DNA of 64,000 nucleotides from a virus, in the IMG/VR virus record IMGVR_UViG_3300042542_003555, positions 96,984 through 160,983 of that record. One strand, written 5' to 3'. Position numbers and translations under genes: made by a program. Of this stretch, positions 13,365 to 62,986 are shown in pieces. Each line of letters begins with the position of its first letter. Positions within the stretch are counted from its first letter, which is position 1. Under the pieces are notes generated by a model. The model was not told the DNA's origin and did not search any database. It worked only from the letters and a program-made list of their open reading frames with translations.

Positions 13365-14313
13365 TTGATGTTCTCCTTTGTATTGCTTCCCACTGATAGG
13401 CAGTGGTGATTATATCTTTTAGTCCATATTTAGGTTTAAAACCTAAGACTTTTTCTGTATAGTTGGTGTTAGTGTTTACCAATTTAGCAGGATCACCTGG
13501 TCTGCGGTCACTATAGAAAATTTCAAAATTAATTCCTGTTACTTCTTCTACCATTGTAATAACATCCAGAACAGAATAACCTGTACCAGAACCGAGATTA
13601 AAAATGCTAGAAGTTTTATTTTCATTTAGAAACTGTGCTGCCTTTACATGAGCCTCTGCTAAGTCAGATACATGTATATAGTCTCTTATACAGGTACCAT
13701 CAGGAGTAGGAAAATCATTACCATAGACAGTGAAATCATTCCTAGTGAGAATACGGGGAATGAGATGAGTTTCTGGATCATGATTTTCGCCAAACTCCCC
13801 ATCAGGATCAGCACCAGCAACATTGAAGTACCTAAGAATAGCACTATTGACTCCTTCTTTCTTTGCATCTCCTAAAATGATTTCACACATTCGTTTTGTC
13901 TGTCCGTAAACAGATTGTGGTTCTTCTGCTGCACAAGAAGACGAGAAAACAATGTTCTTACATCCATAATCTTTCATTAATCTTAGAATATTGATTGTAC
14001 CGGAAACATTGTTCTCGTAGTAATAGGTGGGCATTTCTTCGCTTTCTCCTACCTCTATAGAACCGGCAAGATGAAAGACAATATCAAAGCTGAACTTATC
14101 ATCATCAAACATTTTACCATACTCTATCTCATCAAGAATATGATCATAATTTCTTATGTCTGTCCGAATATATTCATCACAATATTTCGTTGCCATAAGT
14201 TGTGATGGATGTTTGCGATCCATCACAATCACGTAATAGCCATTTTTCTTCAATTCTTTTTGAAGATGATGACCAATGTAGCCAGCACCTCCAGTCACTA
14301 ATGCTTTCTTCAT
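13339..14313 (-). CDS. galE: UDP-glucose 4-epimerase-like (GalE)
   Basis: 324 residues. Rossmann start TGGAGYIGHHL, then FHLAGSIEVGES and the catalytic SVYGQTKRMCE (Tyr-x-x-x-Lys), followed by RYFNVAGADP and GTCIRDYIHVSDLA, all as in GalE. It interconverts UDP-glucose and UDP-galactose (or the N-acetyl forms). The segment before the catalytic Tyr (SSSCAAEEPQ) lacks the usual AVYG spacing, a small oddity. It overlaps the VWA/protease gene by ATGA. Confidence 0.88.
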   Translation of the reverse strand: MKKALVTGGAGYIGHHLQKELKKNGYYVIVMDRKHPSQLMATKYCDEYIRTDIRNYDHILDEIEYGKMFDDDKFSFDIVFHLAGSIEVGESEEMPTYYYENNVSGTINILRLMKDYGCKNIVFSSSCAAEEPQSVYGQTKRMCEIILGDAKKEGVNSAILRYFNVAGADPDGEFGENHDPETHLIPRILTRNDFTVYGNDFPTPDGTCIRDYIHVSDLAEAHVKAAQFLNENKTSSIFNLGSGTGYSVLDVITMVEEVTGINFEIFYSDRRPGDPAKLVNTNTNYTEKVLGFKPKYGLKDIITTAYQWEAIQRRTSNATVGISG

Positions 14314-59430: not shown

Positions 59431-59589
59431 AAATTTATAGCCGGTGTGTACACATTGAGGCATCACCCTCTCCCGACACTCCGTTCACTAAGCACAGCCG
59501 TTCACTAATTCCTGATTGATGGTCAGTTTTCGTTAATACTAAGCCATGTAGTCATCCTTCCCACTGGACTCTGCTCCTGCTATAAATTT
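59431..59589 (-). ncRNA. Stem-closed RNA element C between tRNA-Met and tRNA-Arg
   Basis: Arms AAATTTATAGC (59431-59441) and GCTATAAATTT (59579-59589) pair perfectly over 11 bases. In the transcript the 5' arm starts directly after the CCA tail of tRNA-Met. Inside are a TTAGTGAACGG direct repeat and a TGTGTACACA palindrome. No ORF. Confidence 0.65.
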
Positions 59590-59664
59590 TGGTGGTAATG
59601 GAGAGATTCGAACTCCCAACACACACCGTATGAAGGTGCTGCACTACCATTGTGCTACATTACC
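59590..59664 (-). tRNA. tRNA-Met(CAT), copy 2
   Basis: Loop TTCATAC, acceptor GGTAATG/CATTACC, T-arm GTTCGAATC, and encoded CCA. Copy 1 lies at 57591; one may read AUA as Ile. Confidence 0.9.
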
Positions 59665-59668
59665 TAAT

Positions 59669-59745
59669 TGGTCTGAGTAGAGAGGATCGAACTCCCGACC
59701 TCCTGCTCCCAAAGCAGGCGCACTACCAGGCTGTGCTATACTCAG
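59669..59745 (-). tRNA. tRNA-Pro(TGG)
   Basis: Stem CCTGC with loop TTTGGGA, acceptor CTGAGTA, and encoded CCA. Confidence 0.92.
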
Positions 59746-59752
59746 ATAAAAC

Positions 59753-59826
59753 TGGAGCGGGATATCAGAATCGAACTGATAACAGGAGCTTGGAAGGCTC
59801 ACGTTTTACCATTAAACTAATCCCGC
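59753..59826 (-). tRNA. tRNA-Gly(TCC)
   Basis: Loop CTTCCAA, acceptor GCGGGAT/ATCCCGC, T73 and encoded CCA. Confidence 0.92.
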
Positions 59827-59829
59827 ATT

Positions 59830-59903
59830 TGGTGCCGCTTGATGGAATCGAACCAACGATTGATGCTTACAAGGCAACTGTTATGCCATTTAACTAAAGC
59901 GGC
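59830..59903 (-). tRNA. tRNA-Thr(TGT)
   Basis: Loop CTTGTAA, acceptor GCCGCTT/AAGCGGC, and encoded CCA. One mismatch in the anticodon stem. Confidence 0.9.
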
Positions 59904-60643
59904 TATAATGCTTCAATAATTTTTTTACCTACTCGTTGTACATCTCTGGTATTTCTTTCACCTAAGATGACTATTGTATATTTCTCGCCATTTTTTGTCA
60001 AGAGCATTGCCAGACATTTGCCGGCAGCATTAGTGAAGCCAGTTTTTGATATCTCAATTTCTTTATATTCTTTTAATAAGTTATAATTTGTATTTTGAAC
60101 TACCAAATTACGTTTTACTTTTCTTCTTGTATATTGTGTTACATGCATTTGTTCTATTGCTGCAAGATTTTTCATTGTGTCAAAATTATATGCATAATTT
60201 AATAATATTGATAAATCTCTTGCGTTGCTTATATTATTTCTTCCTATACCAGAAGGATCTTCATATTGCGTATGAATCATTCCTAACTGTTCTGCTTTGT
60301 GATTCATGTTAGCAATAAAACTACTTCTGCCGCCTGAGTGTGCTTTTGCTAAAGCTTCGGCGGCTTGATTATCACTTTTAACTAATAATAATTTTAACAA
60401 TTCTTCTCTACTTAACTCTTTTCTACCCAAAAAACCTCTGTAGGAAACTTTTTCGTTTAATGATGCACCACTTTCAATAACAACAATTGCAGTCATTAGT
60501 TTTGTAACACTTGCAATTGGTCTTACTCTTTCAGATGCATATTCATGTACTACTTCATCTTTTGTTACATTATAAACATAAGTTGTTGCAGATGATACAT
60601 GTGCCGACAATAATAAAGATAAAATGAGAATTAATTTTTTCAT
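59903..60643 (-). CDS. D-alanyl-D-alanine carboxypeptidase-like (S11) protein
   Basis: 246 residues. Signal peptide MKKLILILSLLLSAHVSSA, then the three penicillin-binding motifs: IASVTKLM (SxxK), VKSDNQAAE (SxN) and ISKTGFTN (KTG). It would act in the periplasm on muropeptide stems, as PBP7/DacA-type enzymes do, and lacks the C-terminal membrane anchor. Rare in phages. CAGGAAC precedes the ATG, and a late-type promoter overlaps tRNA-Ala's CCA (60669-60676). Confidence 0.85.
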   Translation of the reverse strand: MKKLILILSLLLSAHVSSATTYVYNVTKDEVVHEYASERVRPIASVTKLMTAIVVIESGASLNEKVSYRGFLGRKELSREELLKLLLVKSDNQAAEALAKAHSGGRSSFIANMNHKAEQLGMIHTQYEDPSGIGRNNISNARDLSILLNYAYNFDTMKNLAAIEQMHVTQYTRRKVKRNLVVQNTNYNLLKEYKEIEISKTGFTNAAGKCLAMLLTKNGEKYTIVILGERNTRDVQRVGKKIIEAL

Positions 60644-60668
60644 CTTTGTTCCTGTGTGTGTAAAGGTT

Positions 60669-60676
60669 TATTTATG
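60669..60676 (-). promoter_or_regulatory. T4-like late promoter before the carboxypeptidase gene
   Basis: CATAAATA, one base off TATAAATA, 25 bases before the ATG. It shares its first bases with the CCA tail of tRNA-Ala. Confidence 0.55.
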
Positions 60677-60748
60677 GTGGAGGATAACAGAATCGAACTG
60701 TTAATCTCGGCTTGCAAAGCCGATGTTATCCCATTTAACTAATCCCCC
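60675..60748 (-). tRNA. tRNA-Ala(TGC)
   Basis: Loop TTTGCAA, acceptor GGGGGAT/ATCCTCC with one G-U pair, and encoded CCA. Confidence 0.92.
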
Positions 60749-60766
60749 GACCGCCTCACACGCTAC

Positions 60767-60852
60767 TGGTGGGTGCTCTCCGATTCGAACAGAGAAGGCC
60801 TAGACAACGGATTTACAGTCCGCCCCCGATACCATTACGGGACTAAACACCC
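60767..60852 (-). tRNA. tRNA-Tyr(GTA)
   Basis: Loop CTGTAAA, a class II variable arm, acceptor GGGTG start, and encoded CCA. 86 bases. Confidence 0.92.
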
Positions 60853-60859
60853 TAAAACT

Positions 60860-60934
60860 TGGCTCCGGAGGTTGGGATCGAACCAACGACATATGGATTA
60901 ACAGTCCACCGTTCTACCACTGAACTACACCGGA
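60860..60934 (-). tRNA. tRNA-Asn(GTT)
   Basis: Loop CTGTTAA, acceptor TCCGGTG, G73 and encoded CCA. Confidence 0.92.
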
Positions 60935-60941
60935 ATAAATT

Positions 60942-61018
60942 TGGCGACACTTAGGGAATTCGAATCCCTGACCTCTGCCGTGACAGGGCAGCGTTCTAAC
61001 CAACTGAACTAAAGTGCC
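60942..61018 (-). tRNA. tRNA-Asp(GTC)
   Basis: Loop CTGTCAC, acceptor GGCACTT, G73 and encoded CCA. Downstream neighbour of RNA element B. Confidence 0.92.
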
Positions 61019-61020
61019 AT

Positions 61021-61229
61021 AATAATATGGTGATTGGACGCCACGCCAACTTTCTGCTTACCACAAGGATGCCTTTCGGCTTCGCATTACTGGGTTGTTT
61101 CAGCGCACAGCCACTATACAGTGACCAAATCCCTTACCTTGCTTCTTCACCATATTGAAACACACTGGGACTCCATTGGAGTGAATTATCTTCGGAACAA
61201 CCCTTAGAACCAATGTGTTTCAATATGGT
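61021..61229 (-). ncRNA. Structured RNA element B between tRNA-Lys and tRNA-Asp
   Basis: A 16-base perfect stem ACCATATTGAAACACA (61149-61164) with TGTGTTTCAATATGGT (61214-61229) extends to 20 bases if one G-U pair on the minus strand is allowed. The upstream arm includes the CCA of tRNA-Lys. Inside is an ACTCC/GGAGT hairpin. A pseudoknot may form between 61196-61203 in the loop and 61092-61099 downstream (GGGTTGTT with AACAACCC). A GCC-GAAA-GGC tetraloop hairpin and a TTGG/CCAA hairpin follow. Confidence 0.72.
61149..61229. repeat. Inverted repeat closing RNA element B
   Basis: 16 of 16 bases pair (61149-61164 with 61214-61229); four more allow one wobble. It covers the tRNA-Lys CCA tail. 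Confidence 0.9.
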
Positions 61230-61300
61230 AGGTGCGGAGAATTTCGAAATCTCGACTTACCGGTTAAAAGCCGGTTACTCTGCCTCTGAGTTACGCACCC
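61226..61300 (-). tRNA. tRNA-Lys(TTT)
   Basis: Stem CCGGC with loop TTTTAAC region giving TTT, acceptor GGGTGCG/CGCACCT (G1-U72), and encoded CCA. It lies between structured elements A and B. Confidence 0.9.
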
Positions 61301-61774
61301 ATTATCTTATCACTCTTGTCACTATCCATAACAGGACTCCTTTTTAAAAAATTAATCTTGCTTAGGCTACTTGTTTTCCACGCAAGCCCCTATGCTGAGT
61401 TGTTACCCTGTCCACATTATGTTGAGCATTTGTCACGCATAATGAACGCTGCTATGTTGTTTGAAACACCGGAAACGCCGATTTCGCAGAGTTTATGTTT
61501 CGCTGACGGTGCCATAGCCACCGGGACTCTCTCGTTTACCACACGCTACTTTCAGGAAAGTAGTAACCGGAACTTATATGGTATAATCTACCAAGCATAT
61601 TGTGCTTGTATCACAGTTAGTTATACCATATTAAAGTATTATCTGCTCAATTTAGGAAATTGGTGCGCTTGCCATCCATAGCCGAGAGCGGTTATATTAG
61701 GATCAGTCGCCGGCTGCTTTGACCCGAATAGTGTATGCGTCCATACACGATACCCTGATAATACTTTAATATGG
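61301..61774 (-). ncRNA. Large structured RNA element A between tRNA-Glu and tRNA-Lys
   Basis: 474 bases with no ORF having a ribosome site. An 18-base perfect stem (61626-61643 with 61757-61774) closes a 113-base loop; its 5' arm starts with the CCA of tRNA-Glu. Further stems: 61731-61737/61742-61748, 61648-61653/61657-61662, 61580-61586/61621-61627 enclosing 61592-61597/61603-61608, 61546-61552/61557-61563 and 61507-61511/61519-61523. The dense structure strongly suggests an ornate non-coding RNA; it may join element B across tRNA-Lys. Confidence 0.75.
61626..61774. repeat. Inverted repeat closing RNA element A
   Basis: CCATATTAAAGTATTATC (61626-61643) and GATAATACTTTAATATGG (61757-61774) pair over all 18 bases. 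Confidence 0.92.
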
Positions 61775-61846
61775 CACACCCAACCGGATTCGAACCGGTG
61801 TTACTGCCGTGAAAGGGCAATGTCCTGACCACTAGACGATGGGTGC
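61772..61846 (-). tRNA. tRNA-Glu(TTC)
   Basis: Loop CTTTCAC, acceptor GCACCCA/TGGGTGT, G73 and encoded CCA. Its CCA tail is part of the closing stem of element A. Confidence 0.92.
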
Positions 61847-61890
61847 ATCGTATTGCTAAATTGTTAAAGAAACTCAACTACAGAAACATC

Positions 61891-61919
61891 ATTGTACACT
61901 GGCTCAATCGTTTTGTCAA
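61891..61919 (-). promoter_or_regulatory. Sigma70 promoter inside the tRNA array
   Basis: TTGACA (61914-61919), 17 bases, TACAAT (61891-61896), ending 45 bases before tRNA-Glu. It would drive tRNA-Glu, elements A and B and tRNAs beyond. Two hairpins precede it after tRNA-Cys (GTTGC/GCAAC and GTTGTA/TACAAC). Confidence 0.82.
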
Positions 61920-61958
61920 GCGTGTTGTACAAATACAACATGTTGCTACTTTTGCAAC

Positions 61959-62036
61959 TGGAGCAACGGGTCAGATTCGAACTGACGGTTTTAAGGTTTT
62001 GCAGACCTTTGCATTGGGCCACTCTGCCACCGTTGC
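61959..62036 (-). tRNA. tRNA-Cys(GCA)
   Basis: Loop CTGCAAA, acceptor GCAACGG/CCGTTGC, T73 and encoded CCA. Confidence 0.92.
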
Positions 62037-62042
62037 GTCAAC

Positions 62043-62132
62043 TGGTCCTTCGGTGTGGAGTCGAACCACATCCTGGGTCTTATCTGGACAAATGCTTATA
62101 AGGCATCCTGCTCTACCGTGAGCTACCGAAGG
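62043..62132 (-). tRNA. tRNA with Ile(TAT) anticodon and long variable region
   Basis: Anticodon arm GATGC-CTTATAA-GCATT gives TAT. Acceptor CCTTCGG/CCGAAGG, A73, encoded CCA. The variable region is about 20 bases (class II size), which Ile tRNAs do not normally have. Confidence 0.85.
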
Positions 62133-62191
62133 TCATTCTTAAATATAAAATAAAGAAGCAAAAAAATGATAACTACAACTATCGCAGCCAT
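62123..62191 (-). CDS. 22-residue membrane peptide
   Basis: AGGAG lies nine bases before the ATG of MAAIVVVIIFLLLYFIF, a pure membrane segment ending KNDLR. An alternative ATG four bases upstream opens an 18-codon ORF. Its stop is inside the 5' end of the Ile(TAT) tRNA gene. Confidence 0.5.
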   Translation of the reverse strand: MAAIVVVIIFLLLYFIFKNDLR

Positions 62192-62223
62192 TCATAATTA
62201 CTCCTTTCCTTTTGTTCGTTAAT

Positions 62224-62316
62224 TGGCGGAGATAGTTGGATTCGAACCAACGGATCATTTTTAAGATGATCGACGGTTTAGCAAACCGCTGCCTTAAGCC
62301 TCTCAGCCATATCTCC
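62224..62316 (-). tRNA. tRNA-Ser(GCT)
   Basis: Loop TTGCTAA, class II variable arm GATCATC/GATGATC type, G73 and encoded CCA. Confidence 0.92.
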
Positions 62317-62421
62317 TACTATTACTGCAAACTTATAAAACGAAAACATCACAGTAGCCATAAAAAAGCCCATTGCTATCCAATAACCTAATATTGTTAA
62401 TACAATTATTGCTATAGACAT
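62278..62421 (-). CDS. 47-residue membrane peptide overlapping tRNA-Ser
   Basis: AGGAGAACAA precedes the ATG of MSIAIIVLTILGYWIAMGFF, which gives two membrane segments (about 2-24 and 25-36). The last dozen codons (DMAERLKAAVC) lie in the tRNA-Ser(GCT) gene. The strong ribosome site makes expression likely. Confidence 0.58.
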   Translation of the reverse strand: MSIAIIVLTILGYWIAMGFFMATVMFSFYKFAVIVGDMAERLKAAVC

Positions 62422-62435
62422 TTGTTCTCCTATAT

Positions 62436-62520
62436 CCATAGTAAAACACATTCTTGGATTCTCGTAACAGTAATCCATGACCCCGGGCGTCATTATGTGT
62501 TTGAATGTGTTTTACTATGG
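62436..62520 (-). ncRNA. Three-way-junction RNA element D between tRNA-Ser and the membrane peptide gene
   Basis: An 18-base perfect stem CCATAGTAAAACACATTC (62436-62453) with GAATGTGTTTTACTATGG (62503-62520) encloses two small hairpins: ATGAC/GTCAT and GGATT/AATCC. The 5' arm in the transcript begins with the CCA tail of tRNA-Ser(TGA). 85 bases, no ORF. Confidence 0.75.
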
Positions 62521-62605
62521 CGGAAGCGGTGAGATTCGAACTCACGGACCTTTTACAGTCGGCAGTTTTCAAGACTGCTGATTTAAACCACTCATCCACA
62601 CTTCC
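62518..62605 (-). tRNA. tRNA-Ser(TGA)
   Basis: Loop CTTGAAA, class II variable arm, acceptor GGAAGTG/CGCTTCC, G73 and encoded CCA that is shared with the stem of element D. Confidence 0.92.
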
Positions 62606-62773: not shown

Positions 62774-62802
62774 AAAAAACCCCTAGTTTTTACGCTAGGG
62801 GT
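62774..62802 (-). terminator. Intrinsic terminator
   Basis: Stem ACCCCTAG/CTAGGGGT (62779-62786 with 62795-62802), then a U run on the minus strand. It ends the unit of the 31-codon gene; tRNAs beyond need readthrough or another start. Confidence 0.92.
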
Positions 62803-62828
62803 CTTGTGTTTAGATTAAGATTTCTAGT

Positions 62829-62957: not shown

Positions 62958-62986
62958 AGTATATAGTAAACTTTTTGGTTTGTCAA
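62958..62986 (-). promoter_or_regulatory. Sigma70 promoter of the 31-codon gene
   Basis: TTGACA (62981-62986), 17 bases, TATACT (62958-62963), CTTGACA context like the early promoter family. The downstream bases GTTAACAT differ from the family. Confidence 0.88.

Follow-up and report, generated by a model that had tools for sequence, protein, structure and literature searches.

In the T4 tRNA cluster, the stable RNAs RNA C and RNA D (species 1 and 2 RNA) lie directly behind tRNA-Arg; we know of no function for either. In T5, stable RNAs annotated as having unknown function (RNA1, RNAI, RNAIII, RNAIV, RNA2, RNA2H, and RNAX) are located inside the tRNA array. The large phage RNAs GOLLD and ROOL are found near tRNA islands (PMC12286853), and the IVS elements (intervening sequences) of bacterial 23S rRNA are excised by RNase III (PMC4990558). 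Here, we analyzed a 64,000-nucleotide stretch of viral DNA (positions 96,984 to 160,983 of IMG/VR record IMGVR_UViG_3300042542_003555; hereafter, the window), in which 4 spacer RNAs (elements A to D) lie in a tRNA array on the minus strand. Elements A, B, and D belong to a large family of RNA cassettes that are exchanged among uncultivated T4-like phages and have apparently not been described before. Literature searches, mostly outside subscription journals, found no description of these hairpins.

Analysis of the spacers behind the tRNAs, all on the minus strand, revealed that (i) element A (61626..61774), a 149-nt structured RNA behind tRNA-Glu(UUC) (61772..61846), has a closing stem of 18 perfect pairs (61757-61774 with 61626-61643) that opens with the first C of the tRNA CCA; (ii) element B (61149..61229), an 81-nt hairpin cassette behind tRNA-Lys(UUU) (61226..61300), has 16 perfect pairs, or 20 counting one G.U (arms 61210-61229 and 61149-61168), and its stem begins 1 base ahead of the CCA, which lies within the 5' arm; (iii) element D (62436..62520), an 85-nt hairpin cassette behind tRNA-Ser(UGA) (62518..62605), has 18 perfect pairs (arms 62503-62520 and 62436-62453) opening with the first C of the CCA; and (iv) element C (59431..59589), a 159-nt RNA behind tRNA-Met(CAU) (59590..59664), has 11 perfect pairs (14 with one mismatch; arms 59579-59589 and 59431-59441) beginning at the base immediately 3' of the CCA. 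These tRNAs were detected by ARAGORN, and tRNA-Ser(UGA) also by the Rfam tRNA model. The geometry agrees with the original prediction, which gave A, B, and D perfect stems of 16 to 18 bases including the CCA and gave C an 11-base stem one base past it. When the spacers were dinucleotide-shuffled to give 200 control sets, no stem close to one of the 23 tRNA ends exceeded 11 pairs, a length attained in 3 sets. The stems of A, B, and D are thus far beyond chance, whereas the 11-pair stem of C is borderline on its own. The fold z-scores were -5.0 for A, -7.2 for B, -8.1 for D, and -2.2 for C.

The array contains 3 predicted promoters on the minus strand, each matching 11 of 12 consensus positions: the sigma-70 promoter TTGACA-17-TACAAT (61891..61919), located upstream of tRNA-Glu and conserved in close relatives; TTGACA-17-TATACT (62958..62986), located upstream of Gln-His-Ser-D, with a predicted terminator (62776-62805) between it and tRNA-Gln; and TTGACA-17-TACAAT (59973..60001), located in an S11 peptidase-like gene upstream of Thr-Gly-Pro-Met-C. 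Judged from the sequence, the cassette RNAs are very likely expressed. Between element A and tRNA-Lys, a small linker hairpin (61576..61631), whose 11-pair stem (61621-61631 and 61576-61586) also uses the 3' arm of A, has relatives in 4 other loci (L183, L188, L217, and L218). It is followed by a conserved region, R2 (61301..61575; GGACAGGGTAACAACTC...), which has relatives at many loci; near 61324, its downstream end includes the start codon (ATG) of a short ORF, along with an AGGAG resembling a ribosome-binding site. Downstream of element B lies a further spacer RNA, E (61019..61148), a relative of which follows a different cassette in L180. The motif AACAACCC in E could pair with GGGTTGTT in the loop of element B.

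A tRNA-blind search of IMG/VR yielded at least 134 such hairpins, and a collection filtered for CCAT...ATGG ends contained 282 with about 185 different interiors; these are not counts of independent events, since related phages share ancestry. Among the tRNA-blind matches, 95 of the 134 listed start exactly at a tRNA CCA, which supports the shared CCA-linked architecture originally proposed. Cassettes, mostly 60 to 230 nt in size, were recognized by a stem at a tRNA CCA with the consensus CCATANNRAARYRYAYT. Elements B and D fit this consensus closely; the stem of A starts at the CCA and is related yet more divergent; and the stem of C (AAATTTATAGC) starts past the CCA, which sets C outside the cassettes, as a member of a separate RNA family. 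The original prediction had described the stem sequences as different and the elements as a shared design rather than a copied repeat. The stems do differ in their particulars, yet the consensus CCATANNRAAACACATT is common to B, D, and hundreds of hairpins of other phages; the architecture is shared, but the elements also fall into exchangeable RNA families, mostly with one stem consensus. In the stems, positions 5–18 were paired in 94% of cells compared with 71% when the arms were re-dealt. We found 44 families with at least 2 members, 34 present in at least 2 contexts and 21 behind at least 2 tRNA isotypes. The interiors were not clearly more conserved than the stems within families (mean identity of 0.86 and 0.89, respectively; 0.88 and 0.86 between different contexts).

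Comparison with relatives indicates that each element is an RNA module whose closing stem, long in A, B, and D, is kept by compensatory change. Such changes, on which the original prediction was made to depend, were seen in the families of A, B, and D; the D family consists of 3 sequences with only two pairs showing a double change, a result matched in 60 of 500 shuffles. For the class II RNA (model R1), which is absent from the window, double changes were found in 25 of 34 pairs. The comparison further indicates that a given module can follow more than one tRNA or turn up at several locations, and that one site holds different modules or none across close relatives. Relatives of A follow tRNA-Glu in L024, L206, and L256 and lie elsewhere in L063, L229, and L180, with stems that are different yet paired. 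The interior of B recurs behind tRNA-Gln in L108 and L109, and that of D behind tRNA-Lys in L188 and L201. Behind tRNA-Ser, where the window carries D, the site is empty in L164, L170, L094, and L098. Element C is 90% identical at the same site in L171 and has a 72% relative at another place in L188, and the corresponding spacer is just 1–2 nt in L164 and L092. Empty or swapped sites occur between tRNA pairs that are 98–100% identical. Turnover is not confined to hairpins: close-relative pairs differed in 35 of 50 cases at hairpin sites and in 51 of 113 at non-hairpin spacers of at least 36 nt. Many spacers of relatives carry stems at the CCA, but some relatives have the same tRNAs and no hairpin, which the original prediction would have counted against itself; we attribute these cases to gain and loss of cassettes, not to an absence of structure.

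The hairpins show a preference for tRNA-Lys(UUU), Glu(UUC), Gln(UUG), and Leu(UAG). Among spacers of at least 36 nt, the hairpin share is 88% for Lys, 66% for Glu, 43% for Gln, and 37% for Leu(UAG), and 0–4% for Trp, Met, Cys, Val, and Arg(UCU). Longer Lys, Glu, and Gln spacers do not account for this bias, because equally long spacers of other isotypes are almost hairpin-free. The Glu, Gln, and Leu(UAG) hairpin units are usually located downstream of a near-consensus sigma-70 promoter, and tRNA-Glu genes with such a promoter (at most 1 mismatch, within 150 nt) carry a hairpin in 30 of 32 cases. Hairpin-bearing tRNA-Lys genes mostly have no promoter of their own. Promoter proximity alone was also rejected as the cause, because among the remaining isotypes (all but Glu, Gln, Lys, and Leu(UAG)), tRNAs that follow such a promoter carry a hairpin in only about 3–4% of cases. 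The recurrent proteins encoded near the hairpins are, as read from their sequences, ordinary T4-like phage proteins, and no partner gene stood out among them.

We lean, with a little better than even confidence, toward reading elements A to D as exchangeable, expressed, structured RNA cassettes of phage tRNA operons, with the stem serving as a processing stalk. Transcription from a sigma-70 promoter would yield a precursor of the form promoter-tRNA-cassette(-tRNA-cassette), in which RNase P would free the tRNA 5' ends and the closing helix would act as a processing stalk comparable to that of pre-rRNA. The length and pairing of the stems are compatible with excision by RNase III, and the cutter would probably be the host enzyme; no RNase III family match was found in the phage record, which may be incomplete. 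Cutting of the stem would release a stable small RNA and leave a short tRNA trailer to be trimmed back to the CCA. The common stem would allow cassettes to be swapped by recombination through the arms, and the cargo RNAs would probably act in trans during infection. Several observations weigh against this reading: the cargo-poor mini-hairpins at some sites, interiors not clearly more conserved than stems, the usual absence of an own promoter at hairpin-bearing tRNA-Lys genes, the turnover of non-hairpin spacers, and the few double changes in the D family.

An alternative that we regard as unlikely is that these are selfish mobile hairpins like the 23S rRNA IVSs, the interior having no job and the long stem rendering an insertion at a tRNA end harmless because RNase III could remove it. 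The anatomy is the same (terminal inverted repeats, a variable interior, scattered gain and loss, and transfer between hosts), RNase III does cut IVS stems (PMC4990558), and some Lys-Asp sites retain mini-hairpins of 38–41 nt that hold hardly any cargo, which is dispensable there. However, interiors recur as conserved families, some of them covarying; an insert under no selection would be expected behind every kind of tRNA, whereas the hairpins cluster on few isotypes and behind promoters; and no target-site duplication was seen between filled and empty sites (L228 and L186, L116 and L113, and the window and L164). The missing duplication also weighs against a DNA-level element, such as MITE-like transposon ends or a recombination site with only incidental RNA pairing, which we judge highly improbable. 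Its inverted repeats do have a consensus and its contents are swapped, and terminal inverted repeats are a MITE-like trait; but at CCA sites the element is always on the strand side of the tRNA, the phage has no match to reverse transcriptase families, and no pattern match was found in 84,980 prokaryote species genomes, a result by which we also rejected a host origin of the cassettes. Moreover, the non-standard stem pairs occur at fixed positions, A.C at position 8 in 94/266 and U.G at position 16 in 148/266, both of them wobble pairs that are isosteric in RNA; at most of the remaining positions, pairing is missing in 1–3%, and at positions 17 and 18 in 5% and 17%.

The model of the original prediction, in which pairing of the CCA delays tRNA maturation and release of the tRNA competes with folding of the RNA as a control step, seems improbable. 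The CCA is paired in 176 of the 282 filtered hairpins, most of these pairing at least 1 base further into the tRNA end, and few isotypes are affected. Nevertheless, the motif is also found behind non-tRNA RNAs, the paired UGG is often partly contributed by the GG of the following tRNA, and many tRNA-Lys, Glu, and Gln genes of relatives are hairpin-free. Such competition cannot be the general purpose, because the relatives of A in L063 and L229 keep closing stems of about 20 pairs distant from any CCA; CCA pairing is common, not essential. A more speculative use of the cassettes, which we consider rather doubtful, is as hypervariable counter-defense RNAs that would decoy or inhibit host factors (PrrC-, PARIS-, or Cas13a-like) whose targets are tRNAs with U-rich anticodons. 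A strong promoter would drive them together with the replacement tRNA-Lys, Glu, Gln, and Leu, and phages would exchange them as host defenses change. The favored tRNAs Lys(UUU), Glu(UUC), Gln(UUG), and Leu overlap those on which Cas13a has the greatest effect (PMC11042736), and PrrC targets Lys(UUU) (PMC10264068), but Thr(UGU), which Cas13a also cuts, is hardly ever hairpin-bearing here (1/76).

Viewed as RNA cassettes with a processing stalk, the elements would, if confirmed, constitute a large class of small viral RNAs that has apparently not been catalogued. Stable RNAs like those annotated in the T4 and T5 tRNA clusters can, as this family shows, be numerous and exchangeable and be arranged as cassettes that share a stem and are linked to particular tRNAs and promoters; their processing (the RNase III stalk), mobility (arm-to-arm exchange), and possible involvement in the contest for tRNAs become directly testable. 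A scan of the window with 4227 Rfam models returned only tRNAs at gathering scores, no rRNA, and otherwise weak chance-level matches, and no family was found for A to D or for cassettes in the relatives scanned at gathering or permissive thresholds. Twenty-one representative cassettes had no match in 50,697 isolate phage records, the small cassettes being compared by blastn only.

Unlike the window, T4 has no long stem at a tRNA CCA; its RNA C folds better than shuffled sequences, whereas its RNA D does not. Several T5 stable RNAs fold with closing stems as here, but T5 has no stem of at least 11 pairs at any tRNA 3' end. The class II covariance model had no match in T4, T5, or phiKZ and thus gave no sign of homology of that RNA to T4 RNA C and RNA D or to the T5 RNAs. 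One related locus (L099) carries a GOLLD RNA; in contrast to GOLLD and ROOL, the cassettes are mostly 60 to 230 nt, and those of the window and the relatives scanned match no Rfam family. Works on phage tRNAs that counter anticodon nucleases treat the tRNAs themselves, and we found no partner RNA cassette described there. The 23S rRNA IVSs resemble the cassettes in having a long inverted-repeat stem around variable cargo and a scattered distribution, but the cassettes lie in phage tRNA spacers, not in rRNA helices, comprise very many cargo families, and prefer particular tRNAs and promoters.

The virus record is 160,983 bases long, and the window is its end. ARAGORN called 23 minus-strand tRNAs between 57.6 and 62.8 kb of the window, and a tRNA-like match (60771–60852) is apparently a tRNA-Tyr missed by ARAGORN. 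An S11 (D-alanyl-D-alanine carboxypeptidase-like) gene with a signal peptide, recognized by sequence (59903–60643, minus strand), lies within the array and has relatives in 13 loci, several at an equivalent array position. The original prediction of four spacer RNAs closed by stems at or next to a tRNA CCA was confirmed on the minus strand for all four stems: (i) stem A (element 61626–61774) has 18 perfect pairs, and its first base is the first C of the tRNA-Glu CCA; (ii) stem B (61149–61229) has 16 perfect pairs and starts one base before the tRNA-Lys CCA; (iii) stem D (62436–62520) has 18 perfect pairs and begins at the CCA of tRNA-Ser(UGA); and (iv) stem C (59431–59589) has 11 pairs and begins immediately past the tRNA-Met CCA. 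In each of 200 sets of shuffled controls, the longest stem in the vicinity of the 23 tRNA 3′ ends had 6–11 pairs; thus, stems A, B, and D are far above chance, whereas the C stem alone is borderline. The fold z-scores were −5.0 (A), −7.2 (B), −8.1 (D), and −2.2 (C).

Three protein searches yielded approximately 170 loci of related phages (L-numbers), many with the same tRNA array. A perfect stem of at least 10 pairs lies near the CCA at approximately 30 of 614 distinct tRNA ends, and a mismatch-tolerant count gave 48 hairpins behind 603 tRNAs (20/23 for Glu(UUC), 13/20 for Lys(UUU), and 15/560 for all others). Because the stems have a common consensus, IMG/VR was searched with the tRNA-independent pattern CCATATNRAARYRYANT-N20-50-ANTRYRYTTYNATATGG, which returned at least 134 hairpins in at least 120 stretches. 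In 95 of the 134 hairpins listed, the start coincided exactly with the first CCA base of a tRNA called by ARAGORN, a number that reflects placement at tRNAs rather than CCA pairing in all members, since the pattern itself starts with CCATAT and finishes with ATATGG. Many of the remaining listed hairpins lie behind other recurrent structured RNAs, in tandem with another hairpin, or behind tRNAs missed by ARAGORN. The pattern had zero matches across 84,980 prokaryote species, and 21 representative hairpins had none among 50,697 isolate phage records. Upstream of cassettes in non-tRNA contexts (L175, L213, L216, and L230), a recurrent RNA (AGTAGGGTGGTATGTAGG...GGACCGGGATTCC..CAGCAACACTGGC) enters the CCA of the 5′ arm and may represent a further type of structured RNA in such arrays.

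In total, 282 unique hairpins were gathered and filtered for a CCAT start and an ATGG end, so that CCA pairing among them is partly by construction. Most are 60–130 nt long, and some reach 270 nt. At stem positions 5–18, 94% of cells are paired, compared with 71% when the arms are re-dealt. An A·C opposition occupies position 8 in 94 of 266 hairpins and a U·G position 16 in 148 of 266; most other positions are unpaired in 1%–3% of hairpins, and positions 17 and 18 in 5% and 17%. A·C and U·G are isosteric wobble pairs, which points to selection acting on RNA rather than on DNA inverted repeats. The 3′ arm finishes within 4 bases of the next tRNA start in 71 cases, often sharing the first GG of that tRNA.

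The interiors fall into approximately 185 families. Among the 44 with at least 2 members, 34 occur in at least 2 contexts and 21 behind at least 2 tRNA isotypes, counts of families, sites, and isotypes being uncorrected for shared ancestry. Every window element has relatives. In L188 and L201, D follows tRNA-Lys, and two stem pairs are altered on both sides; in L108 and L109, B follows tRNA-Gln, and six pairs are so altered. A follows tRNA-Glu in L024, L206, and L256, where its stem has undergone compensatory changes, and occurs in L063 and L229 with no CCA adjoining and the long stem kept. C has relatives in L171, at an unchanged site (90%), and in L188, elsewhere (72%). In a second RNA class (class II, approximately 124 nt), not present in the window, 25 of 34 pairs have changed on both sides. 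In the window (61019–61229, minus strand), GGGTTGTT in the B loop and AACAACCC in spacer RNA E could pair over 8 bases; the E counterpart in L180 is AACCT, with AGGTT in a different upstream cassette, hinting at loop–loop contact between modules.

Cassettes are also gained, lost, and exchanged. The Ser–Ser site that holds D exactly past the CCA in the window is empty in L164, L170, L094, and L098; the Met–Arg spacer is 164 nt in the window versus 1–2 nt in L164 and L092; and between Lys–His tRNA pairs 98%–100% identical, L186 has no cassette, L228 one, and L255 another. No target duplication was visible at the cassette sites compared. Where flanking tRNAs are at least 90% identical, the cassette or its presence differs in 35 of 50 comparisons of hairpin sites; this hypervariability is suggestive but not unique to them, since ordinary long spacers differ in 51 of 113.

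Among spacers of at least 36 nt, hairpins follow Lys(UUU) in 88%, Glu(UUC) in 66%, Gln(UUG) in 43%, and Leu(UAG) in 37%, compared with 0%–4% for Trp, Met, Cys, Val, Arg(UCU), and Ser(GCU). A near-consensus sigma-70 promoter often lies within 150 nt of hairpin-bearing tRNA-Glu, Gln, and Leu(UAG), and rarely of hairpin-free ones. Directly behind such a promoter, tRNA-Glu carries a hairpin in 30 of 32 cases, and isotypes other than Glu, Gln, Lys, and Leu(UAG) in 3%. The tRNA-Lys mostly has no promoter of its own and is usually the second tRNA where a promoter lies within 600 nt. In the window, a predicted consensus-matching promoter (TTGACA-17-TACAAT, 11 of 12 positions, 61919–61891, minus strand) precedes tRNA-Glu, A, the conserved region R2 (61301–61575), tRNA-Lys, and B, and further predicted promoters with 11-of-12 consensus matches precede the D and C units. 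An intrinsic-terminator-like hairpin (62776–62805, minus strand) lies just 5′ of the first tRNA (Gln), downstream of a strong promoter-like site at 62986.

At the level of sequence comparison, the cassettes are shown to be structured RNA modules with compensating stems that are exchanged, are placed at tRNA ends, and favor a few tRNAs and promoters. They would be expressed as part of a tRNA-led precursor, in which RNase P would act at tRNA 5′ ends, trailers would be trimmed back to CCA, and the closing helix would serve as an RNase III stalk, by analogy with pre-rRNA and rRNA IVS (PMC4990558). The RNase III is assumed to be the host's, since the phage record had no RNase III family match. Cassettes might be swapped via recombination through the stem arms. 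Pairing of the CCA may slow tRNA release, as in the competition originally proposed; such a delay is not the general purpose, however, as relatives lacking this pairing show.

Cas13a most strongly affects Lys, Gln, Glu, and Leu tRNAs (PMC11042736), and PrrC targets tRNA Lys-UUU (PMC10264068); the favored tRNAs overlap with both, so that a part in counter-defence is an attractive, though unproven, idea. Hairpins are almost never found behind Thr(UGU), which is likewise targeted by Cas13a.

The related loci hold other RNAs. Group I intron matches lie amid tRNAs and cassettes in L217 (13185–13378, 53.4 bits) and L219 (189–441, 49.3 bits; minus strand; gathering score 50). A betaproteobacterial tmRNA match (L180, 13913–14302, 137 bits), in a viral contig rich in tRNAs and cassettes, is either phage-borne or a host stretch. 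In the cassette-bearing phage L229, ARAGORN called a tRNA whose anticodon is CUA (amber; 1637–1715), and another such phage, L099, has a GOLLD RNA within its tRNA array (13722–14186, 189 bits).

The class II RNA model had no match in T4 or T5. RNA D of T4 begins one base past tRNA-Arg and is followed by RNA C, and several RNAs of this sort are annotated in T5 with unknown function; long stems beginning at CCA are absent from both phages. GOLLD and ROOL RNAs also occur near tRNA islands (PMC12286853), but they are larger than the cassettes and distinct from them.
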